Below, one piece after another: positions 14,201-35,621 of a DNA stretch of 36,214 bases. Origin of the DNA: a virus. Every line of letters begins with the position of its first letter. Within the stretch, counting starts at the first letter, position 1. The translations under genes were made by a program, and so were the position numbers. The stretch lies in the IMG/VR virus record IMGVR_UViG_3300034418_004811, positions 1 to 36,214 of that record. One strand, given 5' to 3'. The notes beneath the pieces were generated by a model that was not told the origin of the DNA, made no database searches, and worked only from the letters and a program-made list of their open reading frames with translations.

Positions 14201-16459
14201 TGTTAATTGCGTTGAGTTGTCTGCTTCGTTTTTACCTAAAACAACAGTTGACTTGCTACTTGAAAAAACAGGTGTTTCTCTATTATACTCGTCTAAATAA
14301 GTAAATCCTAACTGATAACTTCTTATACTTTTTAAAGACTTTGCTGGTCTTAGATTTTCTATTAAATTTTCTTTTATTCTAGGGAAGTTAAAACCATCGA
14401 AAGCAAGTCCAATGTCATCAAAATAAGTGGAGTTAAACAAAACTTTTTTTGCATAATTATTATTTTCAATACCTCTAGTCCATCTATCTGTATAGTCTGC
14501 TACTAATTCAGGTTTTTCATACGCACCAGTTTCTTCGTTGATTATATTGTAGTTTTGAACGTAATTACCATATACAATTCTATTACCAGTAACTTCTTGT
14601 GCTAAAGCTTTTCTAGGTACGTTATCCCACTGTCTTAGTGTTTGATTTTCTGGAACAGCATTAAATATTATATCAGACTTTACCATGTATTGATTAGCGT
14701 GCCAATTATTAAAACCTTCTACTGAGCTAGATATAAAAACTGTTTTTAAATCATTATACCTTAACTTATCTACAATGTAAACTATAGGTGAATTTGACTC
14801 AGAATATAAAATATCAACTTGAACAACGTCATTAGGTATATTTTTAGAAACAATATTTCTTAAATTTATAGTTGTTAAATTGTTTTGCATAGCTTTGTTA
14901 TAAGCTAATAAAGAGTCATATTCAAAATAAGAAGGTTCAAACACAACGTTAGTAAATGGTGAAAAAGTAGAATATTCACCATCTTGATATTTCCATCTAT
15001 AACCAAATCTAACAAACTTTTTTTCAAACAAGCTGTCTGTGTCTAATAACCTAACAACGTTAAACTCGTTTATAGTAGAGTTGTAAGGCCCAGAGCTAAT
15101 GTCAATAGGTGTTGTTGAAGAAATACTTAATATTTCTATTTTATAAGTGTTAACTGGCCAGTTAGCACTTGTATTTCCAACTTGCTGCCCACTTAAATTT
15201 TCTAACACTTTACATCTAACATCAAAGTTATTAGGTAAACTTAATAAAGAGTTTATATTTAAAAATCTTAACTCTTCATTTTCTAAAAAACTACTACCAT
15301 TAGAAAATTGTGTAAACTTTACAACAATTTGTGTCCCAGGAGAAGCTAATTGATAGCCACCAGACCCATCATCTTCTGTAAAGTTATGATCAGAAACAGC
15401 TGAAGTTAATTCTTCAGACTGTTGTTCTATATCAATTTTTTCAACAGGAGATTTTTTTATTACTGTGATGTTTTCTTCTTCAACTAATATATCACTACTT
15501 AAATCTATATCTCTATCAGGGACAATAAGCTTTGTAGCTGTGTTACCACCTGAATCAGTACCAGCAATACTTCTTGTAATATTTATTTTTTTAGGTTCTG
15601 AATTATTATCAGTAAAAAGAAGTAGATTGTCAATAATATTAATACCAGTTATTATATTGTCACAATTAAAATTTAAAAGTCTTGGTTTTACAAAAACTAA
15701 ATAATTATAATCTTCAAGGTCTGATCTAACCCACTCAGCACCAGGACTATTTGGATATGAAAGATCTTCTAGGTCAGTTAAATTTTTATCAAATCTTACT
15801 GTAGAGTTAGCGTGATCAACATAAGTTACTTTTCTTGAAATTATTTTTTGCCCAGCAACCATTTCGTTAATAGCTATATTTCCAATAGTCACACCACTAT
15901 GACCAGCTGCCGCAAAGAAATAACAATCCATACCTTCGTACACCCCTACTGTGCTTTTTACAGCGTAGTCATAATTACCTAAATTTAAACCATTACCTCC
16001 AATTGTATTTCTTGTAAAATCAAAATAAGTTTTAGTTCTAAAATTATCAACAAACACAGGTGTTACAGTATCGTTTTGTATTTTGTATATTCTATCAGTC
16101 CACGTGTAGCTTTCAGGCGCGTCATATAAGTAGTTAACGTCTCTCCAGCCTATAACAGTGTTACCGCTAGCATCATAAATTAAATCACCTGATTTTTGAC
16201 TAGAAGCAAAGTAGTATAAAGAATTATCTTTTTCATTAGAAATAGTACCAACACAAACAGAGTCTGGAGCAACACTGTTTGTTAGATCAATAGAAACTTC
16301 GATATTACCTAATACGTTTTCAACTGCTCCAACATCAGAGCTTTCTGATGTAGAAACTTGTATGTTTAACGCATCTCTATATTGACCTACAGGCACTAAT
16401 CTTTCATCAAGATCTTTATTCATTTTACCAGCAGTGAAATTATTTTTAATCTCCGGCAT
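8225..16459 (-). CDS. Giant tail nozzle/hub-like protein with cysteine-rich repeats and glycine-rich tip, 2744 aa
   Basis: The N-terminus (NNFTAGKMNKDLDERL at about 6-21, then RDALNIQVSTSESSDVGAVE) has the layout of phage tail nozzle or stabilisation proteins such as T7 gp12 and P22 gp10: a short tag, a 'parameters' loop, then beta-propeller-like repeats. The first roughly 1850 residues are beta-rich and low in cysteine. Residues 1868-2196 hold about six cysteine-rich units of the GCxD...NY...DDGSC type. The C-terminal 260 residues are rich in Gly, Asn, Ser, Tyr and Trp, as expected of a receptor-binding tip. The gene follows the two connector-like genes by 3 bases. At 2744 aa it is several times longer than T7 gp12, so nozzle and receptor-binding functions may be fused. 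The function is inferred from motif and position; no search was possible. Confidence 0.8.
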   Translation of the reverse strand: MPEIKNNFTAGKMNKDLDERLVPVGQYRDALNIQVSTSESSDVGAVENVLGNIEVSIDLTNSVAPDSVCVGTISNEKDNSLYYFASSQKSGDLIYDASGNTVIGWRDVNYLYDAPESYTWTDRIYKIQNDTVTPVFVDNFRTKTYFDFTRNTIGGNGLNLGNYDYAVKSTVGVYEGMDCYFFAAAGHSGVTIGNIAINEMVAGQKIISRKVTYVDHANSTVRFDKNLTDLEDLSYPNSPGAEWVRSDLEDYNYLVFVKPRLLNFNCDNIITGINIIDNLLLFTDNNSEPKKINITRSIAGTDSGGNTATKLIVPDRDIDLSSDILVEEENITVIKKSPVEKIDIEQQSEELTSAVSDHNFTEDDGSGGYQLASPGTQIVVKFTQFSNGSSFLENEELRFLNINSLLSLPNNFDVRCKVLENLSGQQVGNTSANWPVNTYKIEILSISSTTPIDISSGPYNSTINEFNVVRLLDTDSLFEKKFVRFGYRWKYQDGEYSTFSPFTNVVFEPSYFEYDSLLAYNKAMQNNLTTINLRNIVSKNIPNDVVQVDILYSESNSPIVYIVDKLRYNDLKTVFISSSVEGFNNWHANQYMVKSDIIFNAVPENQTLRQWDNVPRKALAQEVTGNRIVYGNYVQNYNIINEETGAYEKPELVADYTDRWTRGIENNNYAKKVLFNSTYFDDIGLAFDGFNFPRIKENLIENLRPAKSLKSIRSYQLGFTYLDEYNRETPVFSSSKSTVVLGKNEADNSTQLTAKLVTSPPAWAKNYKIYVKETANEYYNLALDRVYKAEDGNLWLSFPSSERNKVDEETFLILKKGADSDILVKNNAKYKIIAIENEAPEFLKTKKRLLAQSDSAVFNGVSNALAPGVKTFEIDILSWSTQSSVDLSDIKENMQFDFKDTTGRYSKKYNVVNISNDTSIFSIVLETPILSTEDWMYSTGTTSFVTGLKIRFYKAITRVKPEFDGKFFVKINSDSIADTFLNTSASSVEEYEVVESISTFYLSDTGAPDIVQGTTHSVASTAPAEWEQYTSSNVNPHVLPNVGPGTIYSAGDSNSGFESADGPRDWSNLMDFAPGNSTNYVSNWFIDQTYYAGTHPSSSSNNISDPGHVTNSNSSFNYGRGIYEENGQNYIDLAFSIILPFVGGAGLGEPISNYGTLQREINYNDINENYIWAVGSSTNPDHVDQNNVVNSITPGAKFKFVGDVNEVIYTISSTVNITKQRKYNHTDWSIVEAAFDSWSATVPGSPGLEGDAGLRGKYNNLYFQFCYPTNRRVTYKIPIDKDINVESAIGSTISSVPVTAPHQNACAVGANENPITIQFLEQRTDDDNDAVRSSNPAIFETEPKESIDLDLFYSTGSIFPTKFNIKTAEQLVPLGSVVTCKTHPLLLDFNTRTIVTGFTQDQDGNVLIKFNTPLRAQPSGASELVFTRPNGTFTTLNGNWYTPLSTTPTLNFSNVPLFPNEVAYFVFGTTGVVGLSWFNCYSFGNGVESNRLRDDFNQVIIDKGVKVSTTTDEHYEQERRSSGLIYSGLYNSTSGINSLNQFIQAEKITKDLNPTYGSIQKLFSRNTDLVTFCEDRVIRIQANKDAVFNADGNPNLIATENVLGQTMPFAGDFGISQNPESFAVDNYRAYFTDKQRGAVLRLSKDGLTPISEYGMSNYFQEAMPVYELLIGSFDANKKDYNLTLRDTLCFKSSGETLSFNESVTGWTSFKSFILEQGGSVENKYYTFYNSIPWKHHDKTVPRNTFYGAHVNSTVEFLLNDAPDTVKSFKTINYEGSQARIVKEVADPDVQSNANVGFYNLEQVKGWNLTAISTDLEKGRVTDFVKKEGKWFNYIKGKEEYLTKQTLNASDFHIQGLGVAVGLPPIVAGCMDPNANNYGGLTINFDDGSCTYDGCTDANSYYGITYITHPNGTVYAATTDDGSCQYQGCMDEFSPSGIASSNYNVNATIPGTCLWVDSWDCNTVSGGTQVNTSGSGAYTTLAAAQAACPACVGTFGCKSDVYAMNYDPTVDCDDGSCLPYYYYGTRYDLNGNIISQTCLDDGTLATTTMNASGYSVWPSYNGSNSQLDPLEILPCTVSSYTPFNSYTYTDVTGSNNPTDPLYNSNYGNTITVAADNATLNANWAGNAAQGCGCIYKGCMDSTNSNYMPWATDDDISMCCIDGCLDTTANNYLVPNVDCYDTAGGAYVPWDGTTGDCWIGTDPGVPGLLPCCPTCDDGNNCNTALVSFCGLTGNGAGTLTVASTPALANLPWNGNSIIETYVPDGVFEECLEENVSGMQAASFTAPGIVFSTQDGNLLTLGVTRWDDNTSCCSEAFSTLTNPYGLAIGLYIGSQANMTYSGGILGFGDDVHLCTQTRQDGDYISDLTGMQDFALQPLFERLVIHNQNISDFIHSETDNTSTYYNLDMLPLFWQNTMMYQISFKTLPLNNLTNNTLDLLNWNLGETIEVTDCGVGTVKVDRDNNPYMHSVIITNENIHSYSSFAGVGTTNIGGGGSNGYASAQTFIPTTTQGGYGDHGNGYSYLDWDLIAQVNGLFDDGSGNVTRPKSYSTGSTQHFPPHATSWSDGIYVPDNIQGMGGLSGTPTNPRYFDPNYGGGGGNSWSSSNYTMARLGENTIFYWDGSAPGSGNAYYNNPPGLTRYCNTRLILINLDDIEHVYIGPNWRLEFAQNFANPIAFGTTAPYTGRAALYVKGCGNGNGVKIHLGSQSRVNEFQQAYGTNDTNSPYWSSQGEAFFLGYFSSDVEFVI
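9872..10858 (-). repeat. Protein-level repeats: six cysteine-rich GCxD/DDGSC units inside the 2744-aa gene
   Basis: Residues 1868-2196 of the giant tail protein contain imperfect units starting GCMDPNANNY, GCTDANSYYG, GCMDEFSPSG, GCKSDVYAMNY, GCMDSTNSNY and GCLDTTANNY. Several close with DDGSC. Units of this type are common in secreted proteins of marine Bacteroidota and occur in some marine viruses. The paired cysteines suggest small disulfide- or metal-stabilised modules, and the clustered Asp residues suggest calcium binding. Unit lengths vary (about 25 to 60 residues), so the array has diverged. Confidence 0.8.
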
Positions 16460-19671: not shown

Positions 19672-21156
19672 TTATTTCATTAACATGAAATTGTTAGCAC
19701 CTTGTGTAATTAAACATCTTTCAGTTAACATGTGTATTTGCATTGCATCAAGTGCAGATGTAGCAGCACCAACAGAACCAGTAACCCAAGACTTCATTCT
19801 TCGGTCATCAGTTTGTGAAGCCCTATATCTTACATGTAAGAAAGGTCTTTTTAGATTCTTTCCTAAGTTTTGATCGTATACAGAAGATACACCAGCTGGA
19901 ATAATAACCCCACGGATAGCTGCGCTACCTGCTCTGTCATTAATACCACCTCTTGTAGCTTTGTCATTTAAGTATCTAAAGTCAGACTTGTAGAAATCGT
20001 AAGATCCACGTCTGAAACCAGAGAAACCTAAGTTTAATGCCATATCTTCAGAGTTGTTGAATACACCGTAAGATGTACCACCAGCACCGTAAGAATTCAT
20101 TGAAGCTAACATGTCGTCCATTGCTAAACTAGTAGCTCTGTTTACGAATAACATATTTTCTTCAATAGCACCTTGCTTATCAAACTCAGCTAAGATAGCG
20201 TCAAATTCAGCTAAATCAGTAGCAGGGTTAACACCAGTAACACCAGAAGTAATATTACCTCTATCTTCGATAGCAGCAAATAATCCTTCAGTACCGTTTC
20301 CACCAGCACCAGAATCAGCAGCACCTCTAATTTGCTTATCAGCAAAACCGATAGCAGAGCTAGCAGTTGTTAACTCAGATTCTAGCATAGCCATTTCTAA
20401 GTAATCAGTAAATCTAGCTCTAGTATCACCTTCAGCTTTTAAGTACCATAGGTAACCGTTTTGTCCTTCTTCGCCAGATATTTCTACCCAACCTACTTGA
20501 GAAGCGTCAGATCCAGAAATCTCGTAGTAATCTTTCATAATAATTGGCTTATTAGTAAAAGATTTAAATTGAGGTTCTAAAGCTGTTCTTCTTTCAGAGT
20601 TGTGAGTACCAGTAACATCAGAATAAGATTGACCTTTTCCATACTCAGAACCAATAACTAATAAAGTAGCTGTACCATCAGATAAAGTTGATAAAGCAGC
20701 TGTAGCATAAGGCTCAACTGAAACAACAGCAGATGATGGAGTTTCAACAACTAAAGCTTTAACAACAACACCAGCTTGTGCTATTAAAACCATATCGTTT
20801 ACTCTAATACCATGATTAGTAGTTAATGCGTTACCGTCAATGTCAGTTTGTACTGTAAAAGTACCGTTAACATCTCCGTCAGCATCAACTGTTCCAACGT
20901 AAGATAAATGTAGTCTTGACTGCTCAGACCAAACTACTTGGTCAGCTGTCATAGCCTCTTCAGCACCTACTTGAGCTAAGAAACCTGAAATAGTTCTTTG
21001 TCCGAACACTTCAGCCTCTTTCTCCATTAGGTCTGGTAAATATTGTTGTGCCCACCCTGCGGTGTCAGCACTTGTAAAATCGATGTAATTTGAAGCTAGC
21101 GTTTGTTGCACTGATGCAGCTACACTGTTCAAATTAGTTCCATTTGTAATTGCCAT
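19672..21156 (-). CDS. Major capsid protein (HK97-fold type), 494 aa
   Basis: Length, position after portal and acidic scaffold-like genes, and a strong terminator just behind the gene all point to the major capsid protein. Residues 30-60 (DTAGWAQQYLPDLMEKEAEV, then FGQRTISGFLAQVG) give an N-terminal helical arm. Residues about 86-175 are a beta-rich insertion. IIMKDYYEISGSDASQVGW (205-223) and GYLWYLKAEGDTRARFTDYL (234-253) fit a spine-helix and P-domain pattern, and the end is ITQGANNFMLMK. The layout resembles capsid proteins of crAss-like and other Bacteroidota podoviruses, as far as I can recall. No protease gene or cleavage site is visible. Call by context plus fold pattern; not confirmed by search. 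Confidence 0.85.
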   Translation of the reverse strand: MAITNGTNLNSVAASVQQTLASNYIDFTSADTAGWAQQYLPDLMEKEAEVFGQRTISGFLAQVGAEEAMTADQVVWSEQSRLHLSYVGTVDADGDVNGTFTVQTDIDGNALTTNHGIRVNDMVLIAQAGVVVKALVVETPSSAVVSVEPYATAALSTLSDGTATLLVIGSEYGKGQSYSDVTGTHNSERRTALEPQFKSFTNKPIIMKDYYEISGSDASQVGWVEISGEEGQNGYLWYLKAEGDTRARFTDYLEMAMLESELTTASSAIGFADKQIRGAADSGAGGNGTEGLFAAIEDRGNITSGVTGVNPATDLAEFDAILAEFDKQGAIEENMLFVNRATSLAMDDMLASMNSYGAGGTSYGVFNNSEDMALNLGFSGFRRGSYDFYKSDFRYLNDKATRGGINDRAGSAAIRGVIIPAGVSSVYDQNLGKNLKRPFLHVRYRASQTDDRRMKSWVTGSVGAATSALDAMQIHMLTERCLITQGANNFMLMK

Positions 21157-22411: not shown

Positions 22412-24829
22412 TTATCTAGGATCAAAAGAACCTAAATCAAATCCGCCTCCTATAGTATCATTACCTGCAGACTCAAAGTTTTTAGGTGCTTTTTCCTTTT
22501 TTCTTTGATCTATAAGTTCACTTTGTTGTGAGGCTTGTATTCTTGTTCTTTCGTCTTTACGATCTTCTTTTTGTTTTTCTTTACTTTTTGTATTTTCTAC
22601 TTCCATTTGTTTCAACTGCATGTTCATCTGAAACTCTAATTGCATTAGTTCTTTTTTATACATTACTTCCTGAGCTTGTTGCTGAGCTTCAAGCTGAGCT
22701 TTAACTTGCTCTAGCTGTGCTTGTGACTGGCTAAGCGCTTGTTGTTTTTGTAATTCCATTTGAGCAGAAGCTTGTTGAGCTTGTATGTTAGCTTGAGACT
22801 GTGCTTGGATATTTTGTTGTTGGATTTTTTGATCTTTAGCAAGCTTTTTTTCTCTTCTAATTTTTAATAATTGATTAGCTAGTTTTATATTTTTTATCTC
22901 TCTAATATCAATAGCATCAGCAAGTTCTATTATTTGTTGTTGCAAAGCCATTTGTATATTATTTTCAAGCATTGCTTTTTCTTCTTCATCAGGTTGTAGT
23001 TCTATAAATATACCAAAATCATATAAATGCAAGTTAGACATTTCTTCAAGTGTAGCAACATTATGAGCGCCTATTTGTTGTATAAAAGCGTCTTTAGTTG
23101 GTGAATACTCTATAATGTCAGATATTCTAAGCGATAAACACTGTGCAACTTCTGATGTTAAAAACAAACCAGCTTGCAATATATGTCTTGTTGCAGTGTT
23201 AGAATTAGCAGCTGCTAGCTTTTGTACACCAACCAAAGCATACTTATCAGGAGTACTACCATCTCTTGATTCATTAAGACCAGTTGTATCTCTTATCATT
23301 TGTAAATAATAGTTGTATGTGCCAATTAAACTTTGCATTTTAGCACCACCGCTACCTGATTGTATTTCTTGAATAGGTACTTTACCTGGATTCATATCAC
23401 CTTCAGAAGTAAATGACCTACCAATAACAGATCCTGTTTGGAAGAACATGTTTAAAGCTTCTTGCGGATTGTAATTTGTACCATTACCTAAATCTATTTC
23501 AGCCAAACCATCAGCATCTAAATAAACACCATCTGGCACCATACGCGATAATACTTGTTGTAGCTTTAAATGCGTAAGCTGTATCATATCAGCAAAACCA
23601 GTGATACGACTAACTAGGCTTTCTATTCTACCTTTGTACAACCTAGGAGCTACAATAGAGTAGTTCATTTTAACTTTAGTAAAATCACTTTTTGGCCTTA
23701 CCATGTTTTTAGCCATTTCCCATTTAAGTAATTTTTTAGTACCTAATACTAAAGCACCGTCATACAAACACTCTATTGATCTTTGTAGTTTGCTAAAGTT
23801 TTCAGCGTCTTCAGGTGGGTTAAAGCTATCATTTTTTTCTATAACTTTTTCAGCACCACTACCAGTTTCTTTTACTTTATAAACTTCGTTCATATAAGTT
23901 TTATAATTAAAATATAAAACTTGAATTTTATTATTATCCTCTTCTTTTGAATTATAACTAGTGCTGTTGTTTGATCGAGTATACGTTTTATTTTTTTGAA
24001 TTTCCTCTAAGTCTTCTTGTGTTAAGTGTGGGAATTGTTTAGCAAGCTCGTTTACAGGTACATTTTTAACCTCGCCAATATAATAAATGTCATCAAAATA
24101 AGGAGATTCAGTGTAAGAGTAAACTAAATCAGCTGGATCTACATAATCAATTACAACACCCTCAGATGTATTAAAACTAGTTTTTACAGCGCCTATACCT
24201 AAAACAGTTAGATCGTAGTAATATTGTTTTTTAATTAACTCGTAATTATTACCTTTCATCAAAGTGTTAAGAGCTTGTTCTTCAGCAATTTCTACGGCTT
24301 GTTTATAATCTAATTGCATGTGTAAATTAAGCTCTTCTTTAGTATCAGGTAATTTTTCTTTATCATTGTTATAAGCTGATATACCTAGCATTCGCTCTGC
24401 AGCATCGCTATAGTCTCTACTATTCATATCTATAAGTATAGACTCCATGTACTCTGTTCTTTTGCTAACGCCAAAAGGATCTTGAGAATAAGCTTTTATA
24501 TCATACATTCTTTCTGCAATACCATTTACAACTATATCAACAAACTTAGGTATAATAGGTACTGGTTTCCAGTCTAAATTTAAATAAGACAAATCACCAT
24601 TTATAGATAACTCGTCCTTATACTTTTGTATTGATTGCTCACCTCTGGCATACAACCTTAATTTGTGAAAATTATCTTGAGTTGCTCTATACCTACTAAC
24701 CCCTCGGTCAGGATGTAACCACTCGGTTTCAATAGCTTGAGCTACTTTTAAACCATACTCATAGCTCATTTTTTCCAAATCACTTACAACTTGGCTGGGA
24801 AAATAACTTTTTATAACAGACTCTGCCAT
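22412..24829 (-). CDS. Portal protein, 805 aa
   Basis: The portal forms the twelve-subunit ring through which DNA is packaged and ejected. It lies 2 bases after TerL and just before the scaffold-like and capsid genes. Residues 50-104 (FHKLRLYARGEQSIQKYKDE, then LDWKPVPIIPKFVDIVVNGI) are typical of portals of Bacteroidota podoviruses. A wing/stem region follows, with YYYDLTVLGIGAVKTSFN and VIDYVDPADLVYSYTESPYF near the middle. Residues 663-780 are a striking Gln/Lys/Glu-rich helix (QQQNIQAQSQANIQAQQASA) that would extend as a barrel or tail of coils into the capsid. The length of about 800 aa fits crAss-like portals. Confident by context and motifs; no search was run. Confidence 0.85.
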   Translation of the reverse strand: MAESVIKSYFPSQVVSDLEKMSYEYGLKVAQAIETEWLHPDRGVSRYRATQDNFHKLRLYARGEQSIQKYKDELSINGDLSYLNLDWKPVPIIPKFVDIVVNGIAERMYDIKAYSQDPFGVSKRTEYMESILIDMNSRDYSDAAERMLGISAYNNDKEKLPDTKEELNLHMQLDYKQAVEIAEEQALNTLMKGNNYELIKKQYYYDLTVLGIGAVKTSFNTSEGVVIDYVDPADLVYSYTESPYFDDIYYIGEVKNVPVNELAKQFPHLTQEDLEEIQKNKTYTRSNNSTSYNSKEEDNNKIQVLYFNYKTYMNEVYKVKETGSGAEKVIEKNDSFNPPEDAENFSKLQRSIECLYDGALVLGTKKLLKWEMAKNMVRPKSDFTKVKMNYSIVAPRLYKGRIESLVSRITGFADMIQLTHLKLQQVLSRMVPDGVYLDADGLAEIDLGNGTNYNPQEALNMFFQTGSVIGRSFTSEGDMNPGKVPIQEIQSGSGGAKMQSLIGTYNYYLQMIRDTTGLNESRDGSTPDKYALVGVQKLAAANSNTATRHILQAGLFLTSEVAQCLSLRISDIIEYSPTKDAFIQQIGAHNVATLEEMSNLHLYDFGIFIELQPDEEEKAMLENNIQMALQQQIIELADAIDIREIKNIKLANQLLKIRREKKLAKDQKIQQQNIQAQSQANIQAQQASAQMELQKQQALSQSQAQLEQVKAQLEAQQQAQEVMYKKELMQLEFQMNMQLKQMEVENTKSKEKQKEDRKDERTRIQASQQSELIDQRKKEKAPKNFESAGNDTIGGGFDLGSFDPR

Positions 24830-24831
24830 AT

Positions 24832-27045
24832 TTATTTTTTAATTAATTTAGATGTACTGCCTTTATTTGTGTACTTAGCAATACTTAAGTTTAGTTTAGG
24901 TTTTTGTATCGGTGCGTTTGGCCTATATAAATGCCTGTTGTTTGCCATTATAGCTAATCCAGAACTTATAGATGCATCATGCTTTGTTCTTTTGTTAATA
25001 TCAAACTTCGCCCAGTCATTTAGTAATTCATTGAAGTAACAATTACCAAAAGTACCGTCTTGTGCCATACCTACGTGGTTCTGAATATACATTTCAATAG
25101 CGGCAGCGTGAGCTTGTTTTATATCTTCACTTGAGTTAGGTATACCTCCTATTTCTTTTTCTGCTACAGATAATTTATTCCATATTTTATCTGGCCTATT
25201 CATGCTAAAACCTCTGTAACCACGCCTTCGCAAATAATATAATAAACGAGGTTTGTTGTTCTCTGCTAGTATTGGCATCCCGTAAAATACTAACGCCATT
25301 AGAACGTCTTCAAAGAACATCTCTGCAGTTTGTGGTCTAGCTAAATACTCTAAGAAAAATGTATTAGCTGGTGCGTCTTCCATGCTAAACTTAGTTAGTC
25401 CGTGTAAAGCACCTTTAGAACCTACACCATCTACAGTTCCTGATATATCGTAGCTATCACAACCAAAAGCACCCATGTGCTCATTACCAGGCCATTTAAC
25501 ACCATTTTTAATTACAACTTTGTTTTGTATGTTTGTTGGTGGTACCCAGCTTATTTTAAACCTACCTTTAGGGTCTGGGTAAAATATCACTGTTGAATCT
25601 TTAACTCCGTTAACCCATTGAAAATTACCTTTAGTAATACCTAGCGTTCTAGACATCTCTTCGTTGTAATCTATTTGTTCGTATAGTTTGACTAAGTTAA
25701 ATATACTATTTTTTGTTTCATCTCTAAACGCGTGTTCAGTAGTTCTTGGAAACTGTCTGTAAAATTCATTTAACGCATCTTGATCACCTTTTAAACCGTC
25801 AGCTTCGTTTTGCCAACTGTCTATAACACCTATATCTATTAATTCCCCATGTGGATCGAAGACTTCATGATCCGGAGTATTGAAGACTGGGCTTCCGTGC
25901 TCATCAATAAATCCTTCGTAGTTCCACTCCATTGGGATAAAAAGAGAATATAAGCCAGACGCTGTCTGTCCATTTCTGTTTCGCTTAGTAACGTCTGATG
26001 CTCCATATAATTTTTTAAAGTTTTCCCCACCTTTGTCTAGTGAATTTGATGTTGAGCCCATCATACATTTACCTATTATCCTACTACCTAATCGTAAACA
26101 TGTTTTTGTAACTCTCCAGTTATTTAATATATTATCGGGTCTTTCCCACTTACCACTTTCATCGTGCACTAAAAGCTTTAATTTTTCACCGTCATAGCTA
26201 TTGTCACCTGTATTTTTCCAGTCTATAGTTGTATCTAATCCCTCTAAGTCTTCTAGCTTTTCGTTTGTTGTAATCTTCTTTCTAGTGAACTTAGAAGCTG
26301 GAACTCTATATGCAAGCTCGGATTTTGGCCTATCCATACCGTCTTGAATAGGACTAAAAAAGAAAGGATAATTAATCGATATAGGTACAACTTTGTCAGT
26401 AAACATTTTCTTTGCATCAGCACCTGTTTTAGATAATATACCAAACCTTGCATCACTTGATATTGTAGCTTGGTTAACTGTTTCAGCTGATGACATAAAA
26501 GAAAAACCAGATCGTCTGTTTTTAAGGTAACACATACCATAACATCTTTTATCTGCCTTGCATGCTTCCCAGAATATATAGAATATTCTATTGGCTTCTC
26601 TAAAGTCTGGCGCACCTACATCAATTTTACTCCATTGTAAGTACATGTAATGTGTGCCTGTTATATATGTTGCTTTTCCTTTGTTGTTAAACCAGAAACC
26701 TTCATCTCTACGTTTAAACTCTTCATCTATGTAATCAAACCAGTCAGCTTTCTTTTCTTCTGCGTAAGCTCTCCAGTCAAATATATTTTTAAGTCTACTT
26801 AGTTCTTTCGGGTATTCAAACTGTTTCCACTTTTTCTCTTTGTTGCTATACACACTGCGCTCTTTTGGTAATGCTATCTGAAAGTTTTGTATCTCATATA
26901 TCTCACCGATCTCACCAGTCTTAGATATAACCACAAGGTCGTGTTCTTTGTTGTAGCCATATTTCCACTTCTTACCTTTGTTAAGTCTGCTTATAGTAGT
27001 TTTCTTTATAGGTTCTACTATTTGTAGTAAGTTCTGTTCGTACAT
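24832..27045 (-). CDS. terL: Terminase large subunit (ATPase and nuclease), 737 aa
   Basis: Motor that packages DNA into the procapsid. Visible motifs: a deviant Walker A KNRRSGFS (175-182), in which the lysine precedes the glycine as in lambda and T7 terminases; Walker B LLVHDE (291-296); coupling motif GSTSN (330-334). The nuclease domain shows FGCDSYDIS (D530), ILAENNKPR (E595) and KHDASISSG (D690), forming the expected acidic triad of an RNase H-like headful or site-specific nuclease. Its start overlaps the preceding small gene by one base (TAATG), and the portal gene follows 2 bases after its stop. Length and motif style match terminases of crAss-like and marine Bacteroidota phages. Confidence 0.95.
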   Translation of the reverse strand: MYEQNLLQIVEPIKKTTISRLNKGKKWKYGYNKEHDLVVISKTGEIGEIYEIQNFQIALPKERSVYSNKEKKWKQFEYPKELSRLKNIFDWRAYAEEKKADWFDYIDEEFKRRDEGFWFNNKGKATYITGTHYMYLQWSKIDVGAPDFREANRIFYIFWEACKADKRCYGMCYLKNRRSGFSFMSSAETVNQATISSDARFGILSKTGADAKKMFTDKVVPISINYPFFFSPIQDGMDRPKSELAYRVPASKFTRKKITTNEKLEDLEGLDTTIDWKNTGDNSYDGEKLKLLVHDESGKWERPDNILNNWRVTKTCLRLGSRIIGKCMMGSTSNSLDKGGENFKKLYGASDVTKRNRNGQTASGLYSLFIPMEWNYEGFIDEHGSPVFNTPDHEVFDPHGELIDIGVIDSWQNEADGLKGDQDALNEFYRQFPRTTEHAFRDETKNSIFNLVKLYEQIDYNEEMSRTLGITKGNFQWVNGVKDSTVIFYPDPKGRFKISWVPPTNIQNKVVIKNGVKWPGNEHMGAFGCDSYDISGTVDGVGSKGALHGLTKFSMEDAPANTFFLEYLARPQTAEMFFEDVLMALVFYGMPILAENNKPRLLYYLRRRGYRGFSMNRPDKIWNKLSVAEKEIGGIPNSSEDIKQAHAAAIEMYIQNHVGMAQDGTFGNCYFNELLNDWAKFDINKRTKHDASISSGLAIMANNRHLYRPNAPIQKPKLNLSIAKYTNKGSTSKLIKK

Positions 27046-27317
27046 TACTTAGATCTACCCTCTGCAAAACCTTTAAACACTTTAACTTCGGTTTTAGTTT
27101 CTTTACCTTCTAGTATGTTCTCTTCTTCTTGTATTCTATTCAATATTTCAAACGCATCAAATATAGCTAGTTTCTTTGTTGCTGCAGCATTTTTTAATCT
27201 GTCAGCTGATATATCATCGTCAGAATCTACAATAGCTTCTTTAGCAACCTTAATTAGTTCTTCAACTGCTTTATGCCCAGCTTGGATTATATTCTTCTTC
27301 GTCTCCTTGATATTCAT
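27045..27317 (-). CDS. Putative terminase small subunit, 90 aa
   Basis: Immediately upstream of TerL, overlapping it by one base (TAATG). A short helical protein: MNIKETKKNIIQAGHKAVEE, then SADRLKNAAATKKLAIFDAF and EILNRIQEEENILEG. It has two helices with an acidic loop between, consistent with small DNA-recognition or oligomerisation proteins that sit before TerL. I chose ATG 27315-27317. A longer frame opens at 27380, but that would overlap the 192-aa gene by 110 bases instead of 47 and add a poor leader. No classic HTH is obvious, so the TerS role rests on position and small size. Confidence 0.6.
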   Translation of the reverse strand: MNIKETKKNIIQAGHKAVEELIKVAKEAIVDSDDDISADRLKNAAATKKLAIFDAFEILNRIQEEENILEGKETKTEVKVFKGFAEGRSK

Positions 27318-27849
27318 ATTTGATTGTAATAAAATTTGATAATACTCTATATAGTTTTTGACCGTCAATAATAAACTCATACTCTGAGCTTGGCCTAAAA
27401 CCTATTAAATCGCCTTTGTTAACTGTACCGTCAGTATGTTTTACAATACCAACTAAAGGCTTTTCTTTATCTACATTTAAATTATCTGTAGATTTTACTG
27501 GTGCTACAAAACAATATCCTTTTTGCGCTTGCCATTCAGTACCTTTGTATAAGAATATTTGATCTGGTTGTACTATATACGTATCATCATTAATATAACT
27601 CCTACTATTTTTTTCTATACCGTACTGATTGTGCCATCTTCTAAACACATTATGATGTACTATAACTTTATCATTAATTTTTATATCTGTATTACCAACT
27701 GTAGGTATTGCTTTTACTATAGCTTCTCTACTAACATATTGATGGTTGTACATTTCTGTATTAACTATAAGCTCTTTACCGTCTATATTTTTTGTATTGT
27801 TGTATCTTGATTTTACTGGCGTTACAACAAAGTTGTAAACTGACTTCAT
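27271..27849 (-). CDS. Protein with two Cpn10 (GroES)-like halves, 192 aa
   Basis: Residues 1-104 show the order of a co-chaperonin barrel: NFVVTPV, a LIVN strand, REAIVKAIPTVG, IKINDKVIVHHNVFR, and YIVQPDQIFLYKG. These line up with the GroES pattern of opening strand, mobile-loop position, G-x-V-L-A-V-G, V-G-D-x-V and a final D-I-L strand. Residues 108-178 repeat the pattern (GIVKHTDG, VNKGDLIGF, YEFIIDGQKLYRVLSNFITI). I infer a tandem Cpn10-like fold from pattern only. It overlaps the next gene by 47 bases and the preceding one at a TAATG. Because a recognisable GroES is encoded elsewhere, this could have a different, perhaps terminase- or capsid-linked, role. An unrelated beta-barrel is the main alternative. 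Confidence 0.65.
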   Translation of the reverse strand: MKSVYNFVVTPVKSRYNNTKNIDGKELIVNTEMYNHQYVSREAIVKAIPTVGNTDIKINDKVIVHHNVFRRWHNQYGIEKNSRSYINDDTYIVQPDQIFLYKGTEWQAQKGYCFVAPVKSTDNLNVDKEKPLVGIVKHTDGTVNKGDLIGFRPSSEYEFIIDGQKLYRVLSNFITIKYEYQGDEEEYNPSWA

Positions 27850-30785: not shown

Positions 30786-31037
30786 TTACTTTTTCTTCAT
30801 CTTCATTTTCATAGCTGAAGCTTTCTTCATCATCATAGCTGATTTTTTAAGCATAGCCATAGATTCTTTTTTCATCTTCATTGCAGCTTTTTTCATCTTT
30901 GCTGGTGAAGCTAAAATTTTATCTTTTAGTTCTTTTGGTAAGTTATTTTGTTTACCAACTAAAGGTTTTTTTATTGGTGACTTTTTAGCCATTTTTGCCA
31001 TTGATTTTTTCTTCATTTTTGCAGGAGCTTTTTTCAT
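30786..31037 (-). CDS. Lys/Met/Ala-rich histone-H1-like basic protein, 83 aa
   Basis: Nearly all residues are Lys, Met, Ala or Ser. It reads as repeats of KKSPIKKPLVGK, SPAKMKKAAMKMKK and SMAMLKKSAMMMKK. No folded domain is evident. The SPxxKK motifs recall DNA minor-groove binders in histone tails and AT-hook-like proteins, which would suit this AT-rich genome. It overlaps the PAP2 gene start region upstream at an ATGA and precedes the 121-aa gene by a single junction. A role in DNA condensation in the capsid or in sequestering nucleic acid is inferred from composition. An antisense hydrophobic frame over it is a composition artefact. Confidence 0.65.
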   Translation of the reverse strand: MKKAPAKMKKKSMAKMAKKSPIKKPLVGKQNNLPKELKDKILASPAKMKKAAMKMKKESMAMLKKSAMMMKKASAMKMKMKKK

Positions 31038-31567
31038 TTTGTTTTGTTTTTTATATGTTTATACATTGAGTTACCTAATTGCTCGCCCATCTTACTGTCA
31101 GACTTATAGTGAGCACGGGCAACTCTACGACTATAAGATATATTTTCACCTGTTTTTACAAATGCAGATTTTGATTTTGGATATTTATCACCTAGTACCT
31201 TTGCTATTAATGTTCCTTGAACAGAGTGTCCAGAAGGATATGATTTAGTCTTCATAGAGGACATTTCGTAGTTAGGTAAGCTTTTATCTAACTCTTTAGG
31301 TCTAGGTCTGTTGAAGTGCTTCTTTAATTCTAAGATTACAGGTGCAGAGTCTTTTATTAACTTTGCAGCAACTTTTTTATCGTAATCTTCTACGTTGTTA
31401 TCTTTAGCTGTCTTAGCAAATGCAGATTCTATATTGTCAAACTTCTTTACAAAAGATTTATTTAAAGGTATTTTCTTAAGTTCTTTTAATTCCTGCGCAG
31501 TATCAAAGCTACTATCGCTAGGTGGCTTCATTTTTTTAAACGGACCTATATCAAAATCTTTTAACAC
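31034..31567 (-). CDS. PAP2-type phosphatase, 177 aa
   Basis: All three signature motifs of the type 2 phosphatidic acid phosphatase / vanadium haloperoxidase superfamily are present: K82 x6 R89-P90 (KKHFNRPRP), PSGH at 111-114 with the catalytic histidine 114, and S146-R147 x5 H153 x3 D157 (SRRVARAHYKSD). There is no membrane segment or signal peptide, unlike lipid phosphatases, so it may be a soluble acid phosphatase-like enzyme. The substrate is unknown: lipid, nucleotide or phosphosugar are possible. It sits inside a cassette of very basic mini-proteins, overlapping one upstream (7 bases) and one downstream (4 bases), so it is surely co-translated with them. An enzyme of this type in a phage late operon is unusual. 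Confidence 0.85.
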   Translation of the reverse strand: MLKDFDIGPFKKMKPPSDSSFDTAQELKELKKIPLNKSFVKKFDNIESAFAKTAKDNNVEDYDKKVAAKLIKDSAPVILELKKHFNRPRPKELDKSLPNYEMSSMKTKSYPSGHSVQGTLIAKVLGDKYPKSKSAFVKTGENISYSRRVARAHYKSDSKMGEQLGNSMYKHIKNKTK

Positions 31568-31787: not shown

Positions 31788-32153
31788 TTAACATTTCCAC
31801 CTACGTCTAGCAGCTTTACCACGTTCTCCAGTCCAACCTTTTGATCTTGCACAAAATGACTTTCTACGCTTAGCAGCTTTACTACCAGGTTTAACTTTAC
31901 CAGTAACTGCAGTCTTTAATTTACTGCCTGGGTTTTTAGCTCTATATGATGCCACACCTTTACTTGTCATACCTGCTCCTTCTTCTACTGTTCTAAAGTT
32001 ACGACCTTTACCTTTAGTTGTTTTTCTAGGCTCGTTACTTTTTTGTAATGGACTTCTTCTACGCCCACAACTAGTAACAGGGTTAGGATTATTTTTTTGG
32101 ATATATCCTGTAGATTTTCCAAACATATTATTTTGCATTGGTGATCCTGGCAT
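31788..32153 (-). CDS. Arg/Lys-rich mini-protein (DUF6321-like), 121 aa
   Basis: Residues 60-105 carry GMTSKGVASYRAKNPGSKLK, TAVTGKVKPGSKAAKRRKSF and CARSKGW, a conserved pattern I recall from short proteins of cyanophages and other marine phages (DUF6321-like, unconfirmed). The N-terminus is low in complexity and contains RRRSPLQKSNE. The C-terminus is ARRRWKC. The very high charge suggests nucleic-acid binding. The stop lies 17 bases before the 69-aa start, and its own start shares TAATG with the 146-aa gene. No catalytic residues are seen; a DNA-packing or anti-host role is open. Confidence 0.75.
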   Translation of the reverse strand: MPGSPMQNNMFGKSTGYIQKNNPNPVTSCGRRRSPLQKSNEPRKTTKGKGRNFRTVEEGAGMTSKGVASYRAKNPGSKLKTAVTGKVKPGSKAAKRRKSFCARSKGWTGERGKAARRRWKC

Positions 32154-32593
32154 TATCTATTTTTGTCTTTTATCATATCATCTATAGCTTTATTATAAAC
32201 TTTATCTGTATATGATTTGTTATTATAGAATACGCTACGCTCAGATGTAGGCATGTCTTCCTCGCCTAATAGTATACGGTATATTCTATTTATTAATTGT
32301 TTACATCTATATGATGTTTGATACACACTATACTTTATAGTGGTACGATTTCTATGTCTCCATACATCTATCCAACCATCTTGCCTAAGCCTGTCCCACC
32401 TGGCTTTATCCCAAGAAAATGTGTATACTCCGTCCATGAAATCTTTTCGTGTGAATCTTTTTTCACAATCTAAATAAAATAATAATTCAAGGTCTGCGTC
32501 TAAAATCCCGTAAGTCTTACAAGCCCACTTTCTAGTGAGCCTGTAATACTTAAGGATATTCATTTCACGCAAATCTTGCGCGGTTAATCTCAA
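32153..32593 (-). CDS. Possible winged-helix regulator, 146 aa
   Basis: The layout (LDADLELLFYLDCEKRFTRK at 31-50, then DFMDGVYTFSWDKARWDRLR and DGWIDVWRHRNRTTIKYSVY) is that of a small winged-helix fold: a first helix, a turn (CEKRFTR), a recognition helix (SWDKARWDRLRQDGW) and a beta hairpin wing (VWRHRNRTTIKYSV). A basic C-terminal helix (RIYRILLGEEDMPTSERS) follows. I recall close relatives in marine Bacteroidota phages. A DNA-binding regulator of late genes is therefore plausible but unproven; a packaging factor is an alternative. It follows the 112-aa gene by 2 bases and precedes the basic cassette at a TAATG. Confidence 0.65.
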   Translation of the reverse strand: MRLTAQDLREMNILKYYRLTRKWACKTYGILDADLELLFYLDCEKRFTRKDFMDGVYTFSWDKARWDRLRQDGWIDVWRHRNRTTIKYSVYQTSYRCKQLINRIYRILLGEEDMPTSERSVFYNNKSYTDKVYNKAIDDMIKDKNR

Positions 32594-33474: not shown

Positions 33475-33501
33475 TTAAGCTACCGGGTTGTAGCAACTTA
33501 A
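33475..33501 (-). terminator. Weak hairpin at the groES stop
   Basis: GCTAC (33479-33483) pairs with GTAGC (33490-33494) around a six-base loop. Outer TTAA/TTAA arms and a bulge of three extend it. It spans the groES stop codon. It is followed on the minus strand by a mixed AT run without a clear T tract, so termination would be weak. Confidence 0.35.
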
Positions 33502-33755
33502 TCTATCAATACCACATCGCCTGAGCGAATAACTTGGTATAGAGTTTCTTTATATTGAACACCGTGGCCAGCATGCTTATCATAATAAACAATATCTTTA
33601 TCGTTTATTCCTTCTACAAGATTACCAACAGATATAACTTTAGCCTTTATATACCTATTGTCATCATCAGTTTTTTCAGTCATAATAAGACCTGCCACCT
33701 TCTTTTGTTCAAGTTTAATCTTTTCTACGATTATATAATTATTTACTGCTTTCAT
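33498..33755 (-). CDS. groES: Co-chaperonin GroES, 85 aa
   Basis: The protein follows the GroES pattern: opening strand NYIIVEKI, mobile loop at 20-26 (VAGLIMT, with LIM replacing the IVL tripeptide that grips GroEL), AKVISVGN, DKDIVYYDKHAG, and a final SGDVVLID strand. At 85 aa it is slightly shorter than bacterial GroES (about 95 to 97). It caps the chaperonin cavity to fold substrates. Its start lies inside the end of groEL (17-base overlap), so the two are translated together, in reverse of the usual groES-groEL order. Its likely clients are large virion proteins of this operon, by analogy with T4 gp31 and capsid folding. Confidence 0.9.
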   Translation of the reverse strand: MKAVNNYIIVEKIKLEQKKVAGLIMTEKTDDDNRYIKAKVISVGNLVEGINDKDIVYYDKHAGHGVQYKETLYQVIRSGDVVLID

Positions 33756-35307
33756 CGCCTCTCATGTTTGAAATTATACAATCAGCGGATATAATAGTAG
33801 TTACAACACTTACCGCATTTTTAAGTGCTGACTTAGTAACAAGTACTGGATCTATAATACCATGCTTAATCATTTCACACGTATTTCCGTTTGTTACATC
33901 TATTCCTTTACCATTAGTAGGTTCTACAGCTTCAATTATACCAGCATTATCTAATATAGTCTGATAAGGCGCTTTAATAGCATTAAGTAGTATTTCTTCA
34001 CCCCAACCATTTGGTTTTATTTCTTGAGCTGCGTTTAATAGCGCAATACCACCACCTGGCACTATACCTTCTTTCAAAGCTGCTTTAGTAGCGTACACTG
34101 CATCTTCTACTCTATCTTTCTTTTCTTTCAGTTCTACCTTAGATGCAGCACCTACTTTGACCATACCTACTTTACCTGATAACATAGCCAGTCTATCTTG
34201 AATTTTTTTCTTTAAAAACGGGTTTTTTTCGTTTTTTATGGCTTTTTTAACGTTTTCTATACGTTCAGTAAGATCTTGATTGATATTTACAGTGGTGATT
34301 ACAGTATTTTTATCATTTGTAACAGCTTTATCTGCTTTTCCTAGACAATCAATAGTAATAAGATCCATATCATCACCAAGTTCTTCATTTATTACTGTAG
34401 CACCGGTTAAAAATGCTAAGTCTTGCACTGTGTCTTCTTTAGTAGGACCAAAACCTGGTAAATCTATGATGTTTACCTTAATATTACCCTTTACTTTGTT
34501 CATCATAAGGGCTGATTTTAGCTGTTGCTCAACCTGTGCTACTATTAACAACTCTTTTTTGTTTTTTATAACATGCTCTAGTATTGGTTGTATCTTACGT
34601 ATGTTAGGTATTTCACTACCTACGATCAAAACTAGTGGTTCTTGAAGTATACACTCATGCTTTTCAGTGTCTGTAACAAAATGTGGTGACGTAAGACCAC
34701 AATCAAACTGTACACCATCAACAATATCAGCATAAGTTTCTTCTGTACCAGATCCTTCCATAAAAACAACACCGTCTTTACCAACTTTATCATAAGCTTC
34801 TGCTATAATAGCACCTAGCTCAATATCATTATTACAACTTATAGTGCTAATGTCTTTAAGCATATTACCTTCAACGTCTATAGCAGTGCTATTTAAGTAT
34901 GTATTTACTTTTTCAAGTGCTGAATTTATACCTTGCTTAATAAATCTAGTAGAAAGCTCTGCATATTGCTCTTTTTGCACTTCTTTGATAAGTGCTTCAG
35001 CAAGGACGGTAGCTGTAGTAGTACCGTCACCTGCTTCTTTCACTGTGTTTTTAGCGGCTTCTTTAATTAGAGTAGCTCCGAGGTTTTCAACCGGGTCATA
35101 TAAGACAACAGATTCTGCTACTGTTACACCGTCTTTTGTAATGACCGGGTTGCCTCTAGCATCTTCGTATATTACACACTTTCCAGATGCTCCTAGAGTA
35201 GACTTCACCGCTTTCGCCAATTTATCTACACCCGCAATTATTTTACTTTTAGCTTCATCACCAAAGTTTAATTCTTTGATGAGTTCACTGGGTTGGTTAT
35301 ATTCCAT
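33739..35307 (-). CDS. groEL: Chaperonin GroEL, 522 aa
   Basis: A complete chaperonin: TLGAS at 37-41, ITKDG at 56-60, DGTTTATVLA at 94-103, D402 in the RVEDA motif, VPGGGIALL at 417-424 and GIIDPVLVTKSAL at 483-495, matching the equatorial ATP site of bacterial GroEL (D87, D398 and D495 equivalents present). The apical region differs: SPHF (207-210) replaces SPYF, and the hydrophobic groove helix is SALMMNKVKG. The usual GGM tail is missing; it ends GDESSK. The GPKGR turn is replaced by GASGK. These suggest an active ATPase with altered client or co-chaperonin preference. It lies 26 bases from the 95-aa gene and overlaps groES by 17 bases. Phage GroELs are known from large Pseudomonas and Bacillus phages; a GroEL/GroES pair is less common. 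Confidence 0.95.
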   Translation of the reverse strand: MEYNQPSELIKELNFGDEAKSKIIAGVDKLAKAVKSTLGASGKCVIYEDARGNPVITKDGVTVAESVVLYDPVENLGATLIKEAAKNTVKEAGDGTTTATVLAEALIKEVQKEQYAELSTRFIKQGINSALEKVNTYLNSTAIDVEGNMLKDISTISCNNDIELGAIIAEAYDKVGKDGVVFMEGSGTEETYADIVDGVQFDCGLTSPHFVTDTEKHECILQEPLVLIVGSEIPNIRKIQPILEHVIKNKKELLIVAQVEQQLKSALMMNKVKGNIKVNIIDLPGFGPTKEDTVQDLAFLTGATVINEELGDDMDLITIDCLGKADKAVTNDKNTVITTVNINQDLTERIENVKKAIKNEKNPFLKKKIQDRLAMLSGKVGMVKVGAASKVELKEKKDRVEDAVYATKAALKEGIVPGGGIALLNAAQEIKPNGWGEEILLNAIKAPYQTILDNAGIIEAVEPTNGKGIDVTNGNTCEMIKHGIIDPVLVTKSALKNAVSVVTTIISADCIISNMRGDESSK

Positions 35308-35333: not shown

Positions 35334-35621
35334 CTATTCGAATGTTTTGATTACTTTAGGCCCTGCTGATGCTTCAATCTTTTTAGCAAAGTGATCGATG
35401 CTACCATCAATTGCTGCTTCAGCGCCTTCAATAGTCTCTCGCCTAGTTACATCGTGCCATGTACTTTCTACTTCATGTTTGCACTCTGTTTGAAAAAATC
35501 CATTTGGCAGTTGGGTAATTCTCCAGTTAGCTTTATTAGCTAAGTGTTTCCACTGCTGTATTTCTTTTTCACTTGGTTTTTGGTTGTACGTTGCCGTACT
35601 CTTGTAATATAAATAAGTCAT
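35334..35621 (-). CDS. Small conserved-type protein, 95 aa
   Basis: Function unknown. WRITQLPNGFFQTECKHEVE and WHDVTRRETIEGAEAAIDGS, then DHFAKKIEASAGPKVIKTFE are close in pattern to a short protein I recall from cyanophages and other marine phages ('LPNG..QTE', 'DVTRRETIEGAE..ID'). It appears to be a single alpha/beta domain with no signal peptide. Position just before groEL might hint at a link, but small genes of this type have moved freely among marine phages. A 50-base gap precedes it. Confidence 0.7.
   Translation of the reverse strand: MTYLYYKSTATYNQKPSEKEIQQWKHLANKANWRITQLPNGFFQTECKHEVESTWHDVTRRETIEGAEAAIDGSIDHFAKKIEASAGPKVIKTFE

Follow-up and report, generated by a model that had tools for sequence, protein, structure and literature searches.

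The virus sequence analysed here likely encodes a Group I chaperonin that is specific to phages and has been passed down vertically, together with its own co-chaperonin, a pair that would serve late proteins and probably works as a single or loosely double ring. This reading draws on sequence comparison and on predicted structures. Pairs of groEL and groES in phages are already known; what is new here is a lineage in which groEL precedes and overlaps groES, the ring-ring contact segments of GroEL are deleted and the GroES lid has no roof. We did not find this combination in the literature that was searched, among which the principal survey of chaperonins in marine viruses, Marine et al. 2017 (ISME J), does not figure.

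The genes and their setting

The 36,214 bases examined come from IMG/VR and probably represent a genome fragment; their whole length is referred to below as the window. Between 35938 and 4017 the main ORFs share the minus strand, and in the direction of reading the chaperonin pair precedes the holin, terminase, portal and virion genes. Scanning the window with Rfam and for tRNAs gave no matches. The features discussed are:

35334-35621, minus strand: 95-aa protein with no family match, immediately upstream of groEL
33739-35307, minus strand: groEL, Group I chaperonin of a phage-specific lineage, 522 aa (Pfam PF00118, PHROG 5725)
33739-33755, minus strand: 17-bp groEL/groES overlap, with the groES start codon within the groEL 3' end
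33498-33755, minus strand: groES, roofless co-chaperonin with a mobile loop two residues longer than in bacteria, 85 aa (Pfam PF00166, PHROG 3188)
32153-32593, minus strand: 146-aa protein that follows the chaperonin pair in 72 related loci
31034-31567, minus strand: 177-aa protein of the PAP2 superfamily, GTG start codon, among the late genes (PF01569, 1.3e-7)
27271-27849, minus strand: 192-aa candidate second GroES-like protein, upstream of the terminase gene terL (phrog_13932, 1.4e-16)
24832-27045, minus strand: terminase large subunit (phrog_6681, 1.5e-164; 63% identity to MW202828)
22412-24829, minus strand: portal protein (phrog_6547, 2.3e-155)
19672-21156, minus strand: 494-aa, 53.0-kDa virion structural protein (phrog_13704, 2.3e-98)
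8225-16459, minus strand: 2744-aa virion structural protein with a crAssvirus muzzle C-terminal domain (phrog_14478, 1.8e-127; PF25729, 1.9e-7)

Both chaperonin genes are complete, as the sequence-only reading had it, and both products match their families. The GroEL matches Pfam Cpn60_TCP1 over residues 30-514 (2.2e-54, 185 bits against a cut-off of 34) and its PHROG at 5.7e-133, while the GroES matches Pfam Cpn10 (1.6e-7, 31.7 bits against a cut-off of 21.1) and its PHROG at 3e-11. Among the NCBIfam models, the GroEL passes the subfamily models NF000592 (481 bits, cut-off 397) and NF009487, but falls below the cut-off of the equivalog TIGR02348 (475 bits versus 582); thus, by these profile scores, it is a divergent Group I chaperonin and not the housekeeping equivalog. 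The AF2 model of GroEL, a monomer built from an alignment that included bacterial rows, has the GroEL fold (pLDDT 85.2), with TM scores of 0.89-0.90 to GroEL-ATP (4aaq) and to the single ring of mtHsp60 (9shk). The GroES model (pLDDT 85.3) finds Cpn10 folds by Foldseek, with 1g31 (gp31) among them.

groEL precedes and overlaps groES throughout one phage lineage

The ORF coordinates confirm that groEL comes before groES and that the two share 17 bases. Since the groES start codon lies within the last groEL codons, some bases serve both the tail of GroEL (...RGDESSK-stop) and the start of GroES (MKAVN...). An IMG/VR scan with the window GroEL returned 80 loci at 68-96% identity. Every one of the 77 relatives whose GroEL is complete has groES following it on the same strand, and the genes overlap by 1-29 bases in 76 of these, the remaining one having a 427-base gap; the order is the same in two further loci with a truncated GroEL. 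Because the overlap recurs in this way, it is not due to chance, and the 77 other contigs rule out that the flipped order is an assembly artefact of this one. The viral loci were picked by similarity to the window GroEL and the counts are of related sequences; a count of 78/78 therefore describes one lineage, not independent events.

Outside this lineage, groEL also comes first in Elemovirus, where the genes share one base, and in the podovirus ctfjg026 (MW202828), where they are 4 bases apart. The 44-bp overlap annotated in MW202828 was not counted, because the conserved GroES start sits 4 bp past the groEL stop. By contrast, groES precedes groEL in Immutovirus, Bacteroides phage DAC19 and Cellulophaga phi38:1, and in about 71 of the bacteria, the great majority of a sample whose size was capped. 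Six bacterial loci have groEL first, five from Planctomycetota (L173, L178, L180, L197 and L243) and one from Omnitrophota; the genes are separated by 69-333 bp in five of the six, and the other has an apparent 151-bp overlap with an unreliable GroES start. These six loci rule out that the flipped order is exclusive to phages. The contrast that had been drawn with the bacterial groES-groEL operon thus needs qualifying: the flip is real, but it is typical of a whole lineage and occurs in a few bacteria as well. As the order is the same in 77 of 77 relatives, and Elemovirus and ctfjg026 are alike in this respect, the flip is a character that one phage lineage and its close relatives have kept.

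The overlap would couple translation of groES to that of groEL. Only 23 of 78 loci have an SD-like motif ahead of groES, so that an SD-driven groES start is without general support.

The lineage is remote from the bacterial GroELs sampled

A tree built from 69 GroELs places the lineage in a single, fully supported clade whose stem measures 1.67 changes per site. After most of the long phage branches were dropped and Bacteroidota were added, it still stood apart, the stem being no shorter than 1.6 in either tree. The highest identity to any of the 79 sampled bacterial GroELs is 43%, and nothing above 43% was found among the best matches from 295 genomes of the class of Zobellia. The identity to the GroEL of phage phiEL is about 26% over a partial match only; the EL and PBS1 proteins were aligned but stand outside the tree.

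These results bear on whether a bacterial groESL operon was recently captured and then rearranged. Phages do take chaperonins, and the GroELs of Vibrio phages Va1 and 2.275.O fall within the gammaproteobacterial GroELs in our tree. For the window, tight grouping with one bacterial groESL operon had been proposed as the sign of such a transfer; what we find is a fully supported clade on a long stem, with no bacterial GroEL closer than 43%, and a recent capture here is extremely unlikely. Judged by these comparisons, the GroEL did not come recently from bacteria but belongs to a phage-only lineage that appears old, vertically inherited, widespread and remote from the sampled bacterial GroELs.

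An intact nucleotide site and deleted ring-ring contacts

To locate conserved positions, residues were mapped onto E. coli GroEL for 78 GroELs of the lineage, 79 from bacteria and 14 from other phages. As noted from the sequence for the ATP site, the ATP-site and catalytic residues are all present (D52, D87, T89-T91, D398 and D495, E. coli numbering), and they are fixed across the 78 lineage GroELs wherever the column is covered. Likewise, the GGM tail is indeed absent, being found in 0/78 of the lineage versus 72/79 bacteria. The one exception to an intact nucleotide site is P33, which is universal in the bacteria but Ala in the window GroEL and in all 77 lineage members that have that column.

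The two rings of GroEL touch through R452-E461, V464-V464, A109-A109 and E434-E434 (PMC3326522, PMC2741606), and the mutant R452E/E461A/S463A/V464A is single-ring (PMC12696368). Positions E434, R452, E461, S463 and V464 of E. coli GroEL belong to or adjoin two segments that are shortened in the lineage. Segment 455-470 has 8-10 residues in 78/78 members, compared with exactly 14 in 79/79 bacteria, a deletion thus present in every member and in no bacterium; segment 420-440 has 11-14 residues, compared with 17-22 in bacteria. V464 is missing in all 78 lineage GroELs, R452 is not the common lineage residue, and the A109 contact is Ala in 20/78, as against 76/79 bacteria. The AF2 model has coil at the place of helix 462-471, and in the chaperonin of phiEL a loop replaces that same helix and ATP splits the assembly into single rings (PMC7185714).

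With the contact segments lost, the model in coil at 462-471 and the phiEL loop alike, single rings or weak and different double rings are predicted; loss of the segments that hold R452, E461, S463, V464 and E434 would leave a single-ring or loosely double-ring machine. We consider, with moderate confidence, that the GroEL is probably of this kind, and we lean slightly towards a single-ring or ring-splitting cycle. The deletion of the contact segments argues against a staggered double ring joined through the standard interface. The phiEL chaperonin keeps its double ring when nucleotide is absent, and by analogy a GroEL that has lost the usual contact segments may still form a new interface. 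In addition, mtHsp60 single rings use another contact set, and thus the 420-440 and 455-470 segments are not the sole determinant of ring state.

If the pair were an ordinary double-ring GroEL/GroES that boosts the folding capacity of the host, the flip and the sequence changes would be neutral drift. The intact GroEL fold and nucleotide site fit that explanation, as do the score above the NF000592 cut-off and the few bacteria that also have groEL before groES. Drift does not readily account for two deletions that are both fixed in 78/78 members, one of them seen in none of the 79 bacteria, beside an invariant ATP site, nor for groove substitutions (L234Q, L259K/Q/R) that are fixed or nearly fixed in the lineage; the score against TIGR02348 also stays below its cut-off. 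We regard this explanation as rather unlikely.

Changes on both sides of the GroEL-GroES contact

Residues L234 and L259 in the apical groove of E. coli GroEL matter for binding both the substrate and the lid. The lineage GroELs carry L234Q (78/78) and L259K/Q/R (78/78) in this groove, along with Y199L/I, V263M and V264M, and they retain, as fixed residues, the GroES-contact positions L237 and N265. (L234, L237 and N265 touch GroES; PMC7289027.) Because L234Q and L259K alter such groove residues, binding could be impaired or different, not merely weaker. The SPHF reported in place of SPYF is present in the window GroEL but is not fixed in the lineage, where residue 203 is His in 57, Asn in 19 and Tyr in 2 of 78 members.

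The lid has changed as well. The roof segment of GroES is 7 residues in 78/78 lineage members versus 16 in E. coli, and there is no roof hairpin; among the bacterial GroES proteins, 18, with flavobacterial sequences among them, have an in-between length of 11 residues and four also have 7. The mobile-loop segment has 23 residues in the lineage versus 21 in bacteria, and I25L is found in 78/78 members. The L-I-M tripeptide described for this loop is real, at residues 23-25, and keeps its hydrophobic character, in a region (residues 11-30) where the model is of low confidence; the lineage pattern is L-[I/L]-[L/M/V/F/I] rather than LIM itself. In T4 gp31, too, the roof loops are missing and the mobile loop is longer (PMC6318259), and the short, roofless lid of the lineage would give a wider opening, as in gp31. 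The two inter-ring deletions, L234Q, L259K and the absent roof hairpin are more striking than the changes picked out by the sequence-only reading, which does not mention them.

The distances among GroELs and among GroES proteins correlate (r=0.64, 62 sequences; 0/999 permutations as high), a result that linkage alone would give likewise. Together with the deep phage-only clade, the constant company of the two genes and the changes on both contact sides, this correlation supports the proposal of a co-evolved, phage-specific pair, and we conclude from the sequences that the pair is very probably functional. Such a matched pair would have altered contacts, namely L234Q, L259K, V263M and V264M on GroEL (with N265 and L237 kept) and I25L and the longer loop on GroES. 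The further suggestion that a matched pair is less usual does not hold: phage genomes that carry the two genes have been described (Marine 2017 as cited in PMC7185714; PMC11590407) and are annotated in RefSeq, and the pair occurs here in dozens of marine viral contigs.

A GroEL that never encloses its substrate but acts as a holding chaperone, or in some capacity other than folding, much like phiEL, beside a GroES that is vestigial or otherwise employed, would be compatible with the partly polar groove (L234Q, L259K, Y203H). The phiEL chaperonin keeps proteins from aggregating with no lid and fails to refold rhodanese (PMC7185714). In this lineage, however, GroES is always present, intact and linked, L237 and N265 are fixed, three hydrophobic residues remain in the mobile loop, and the distances of the two proteins correlate. 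We therefore judge a lidless role improbable and favour a chaperonin that uses its own GroES.

E. coli single-ring GroEL grips GroES too tightly and works only when the grip is weaker (PMC5575113). If the altered groove lowers affinity for the lid, a single ring of this lineage could release the lid, unlike its E. coli counterpart. That a weak grip is a compensating change is possible but doubtful; the groove changes could shift affinity in either direction. A fuller picture, which we offer only tentatively, would be a naturally single-ring Group I chaperonin with a dedicated roofless GroES and a re-tuned lid grip (L234Q/L259K; I25L and the longer loop) that folds a virion protein, possibly aided by the 192-aa GroES-like protein.

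A second GroES-like gene

The phrog_13932 family, to which the 192-aa protein belongs, is named 'co-chaperonin GroES', and residues 106-178 of the protein align weakly with the full domain of a GroES profile (E=3.2e-4 in one comparison, probability 39%). Pfam and NCBIfam gave no Cpn10 match for it, and BLASTP against GroES gave no useful match. Orthologues lie upstream of terL in Elemovirus and phi38:1, where they are annotated as GroES, and the protein has at least 592 viral relatives. It may be a tandem GroES-like candidate kept in flavobacterial podoviruses. One could take it for the true working lid, with the 85-aa GroES as an accessory, on account of the family annotation, the profile match of its second half and its kept position beside terL. 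Nevertheless, the homology is weak, the second half has no clear mobile loop, and it is the 85-aa protein that is joined to groEL by the overlap; we find such an exchange of roles very improbable and keep to the 85-aa protein as the lid.

Neighbouring genes, host and clients

The 95-aa gene is co-directional with and upstream of groEL in 69 related loci, at a median spacing of 32 bp, and family searches with its product gave no match. The sole match of the 146-aa protein is weak, to a PHROG without an assigned function. The PAP2-superfamily gene is near groEL in just 8 related loci. The terminase, portal and virion genes have relatives in Cellulophaga, Flavobacterium, Maribacter and Tenacibaculum phages, from which we infer that the host of this marine phage is probably a flavobacterium. 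A paper on Baltic Flavobacterium phages (host BAL314 included) makes no mention of chaperonins. The muzzle domain (PF25729) in the 2744-aa protein hints at a tail relationship with crAss-like phages.

The pair would assist the folding of phage late proteins. Its position ahead of the holin, terminase, portal and virion genes, all read in the same direction, suggests that it is expressed late and acts on virion components, and we think it likely that the clients are late or virion proteins. T4 gp23 is a client of gp31, and the 494-aa protein is within the size range of gp23; it is a candidate major capsid protein and a possible client. The 2744-aa protein, proposed earlier as a client, is 302 kDa and too large for full encapsulation.

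Comparison with known systems and implications

The nearest parallels are Elemovirus (Flavobacterium) and ctfjg026, which likewise have a phage pair with groEL then groES touching or nearly touching, a roofless GroES and terminases related to that of the window (45-63% identity). Their GroELs have just 38% identity to the window GroEL; Elemovirus keeps segment 455-470 and ctfjg026 keeps both segments, and thus both are without the double deletion. Cellulophaga phi38:1 (Pervagoviridae, Callevirus) resembles the window in having both genes, Ala33, a GroES-like gene upstream of terL and part of segment 455-470 missing, but differs in its gene order (groES, a small gene, groEL), its full-length 420-440 segment and its GroEL identity of 39%.

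More distantly, phiEL gp146 resembles the window GroEL in its altered ring-ring interface and the loop for helix 462-471, and it forms single rings with ATP (PMC7185714, PMC5934643); the GroELs of OBP and PBS1/AR9-type jumbo phages are grouped with it as altered-interface phage GroELs. Unlike the window GroEL, gp146 is distant in sequence, does not interact with E. coli GroES, and was found to have no adjoining GroES gene. T4 gp31 is like the window GroES in its Cpn10 fold, missing roof loops and longer mobile loop, but the resemblance is one of form (TM 0.55-0.67, 17% identity), and gp31 has the host GroEL, not a phage one, as its partner. In the E. coli single-ring mutant SR1 and in mitochondrial mtHsp60/Hsp10 the same ring-ring contacts are lost or rewired, and mtHsp60 single rings are active (PMC12696368, PMC7174398). 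However, SR1 is engineered and stalls with GroES tightly bound (PMC5575113), and the contacts of mtHsp60 are rewired by substitution, not by deletion.

Single-ring chaperonins that continue to work with a lid are a matter of debate (mtHsp60, engineered GroEL-SR). If our reading is correct, the lineage would provide a large natural set of phage chaperonins in which the ring contacts are deleted and the lid contacts changed, making the question directly testable. It would also represent a second phage route, beside T4 gp31, to reshape the folding chamber for virion proteins.
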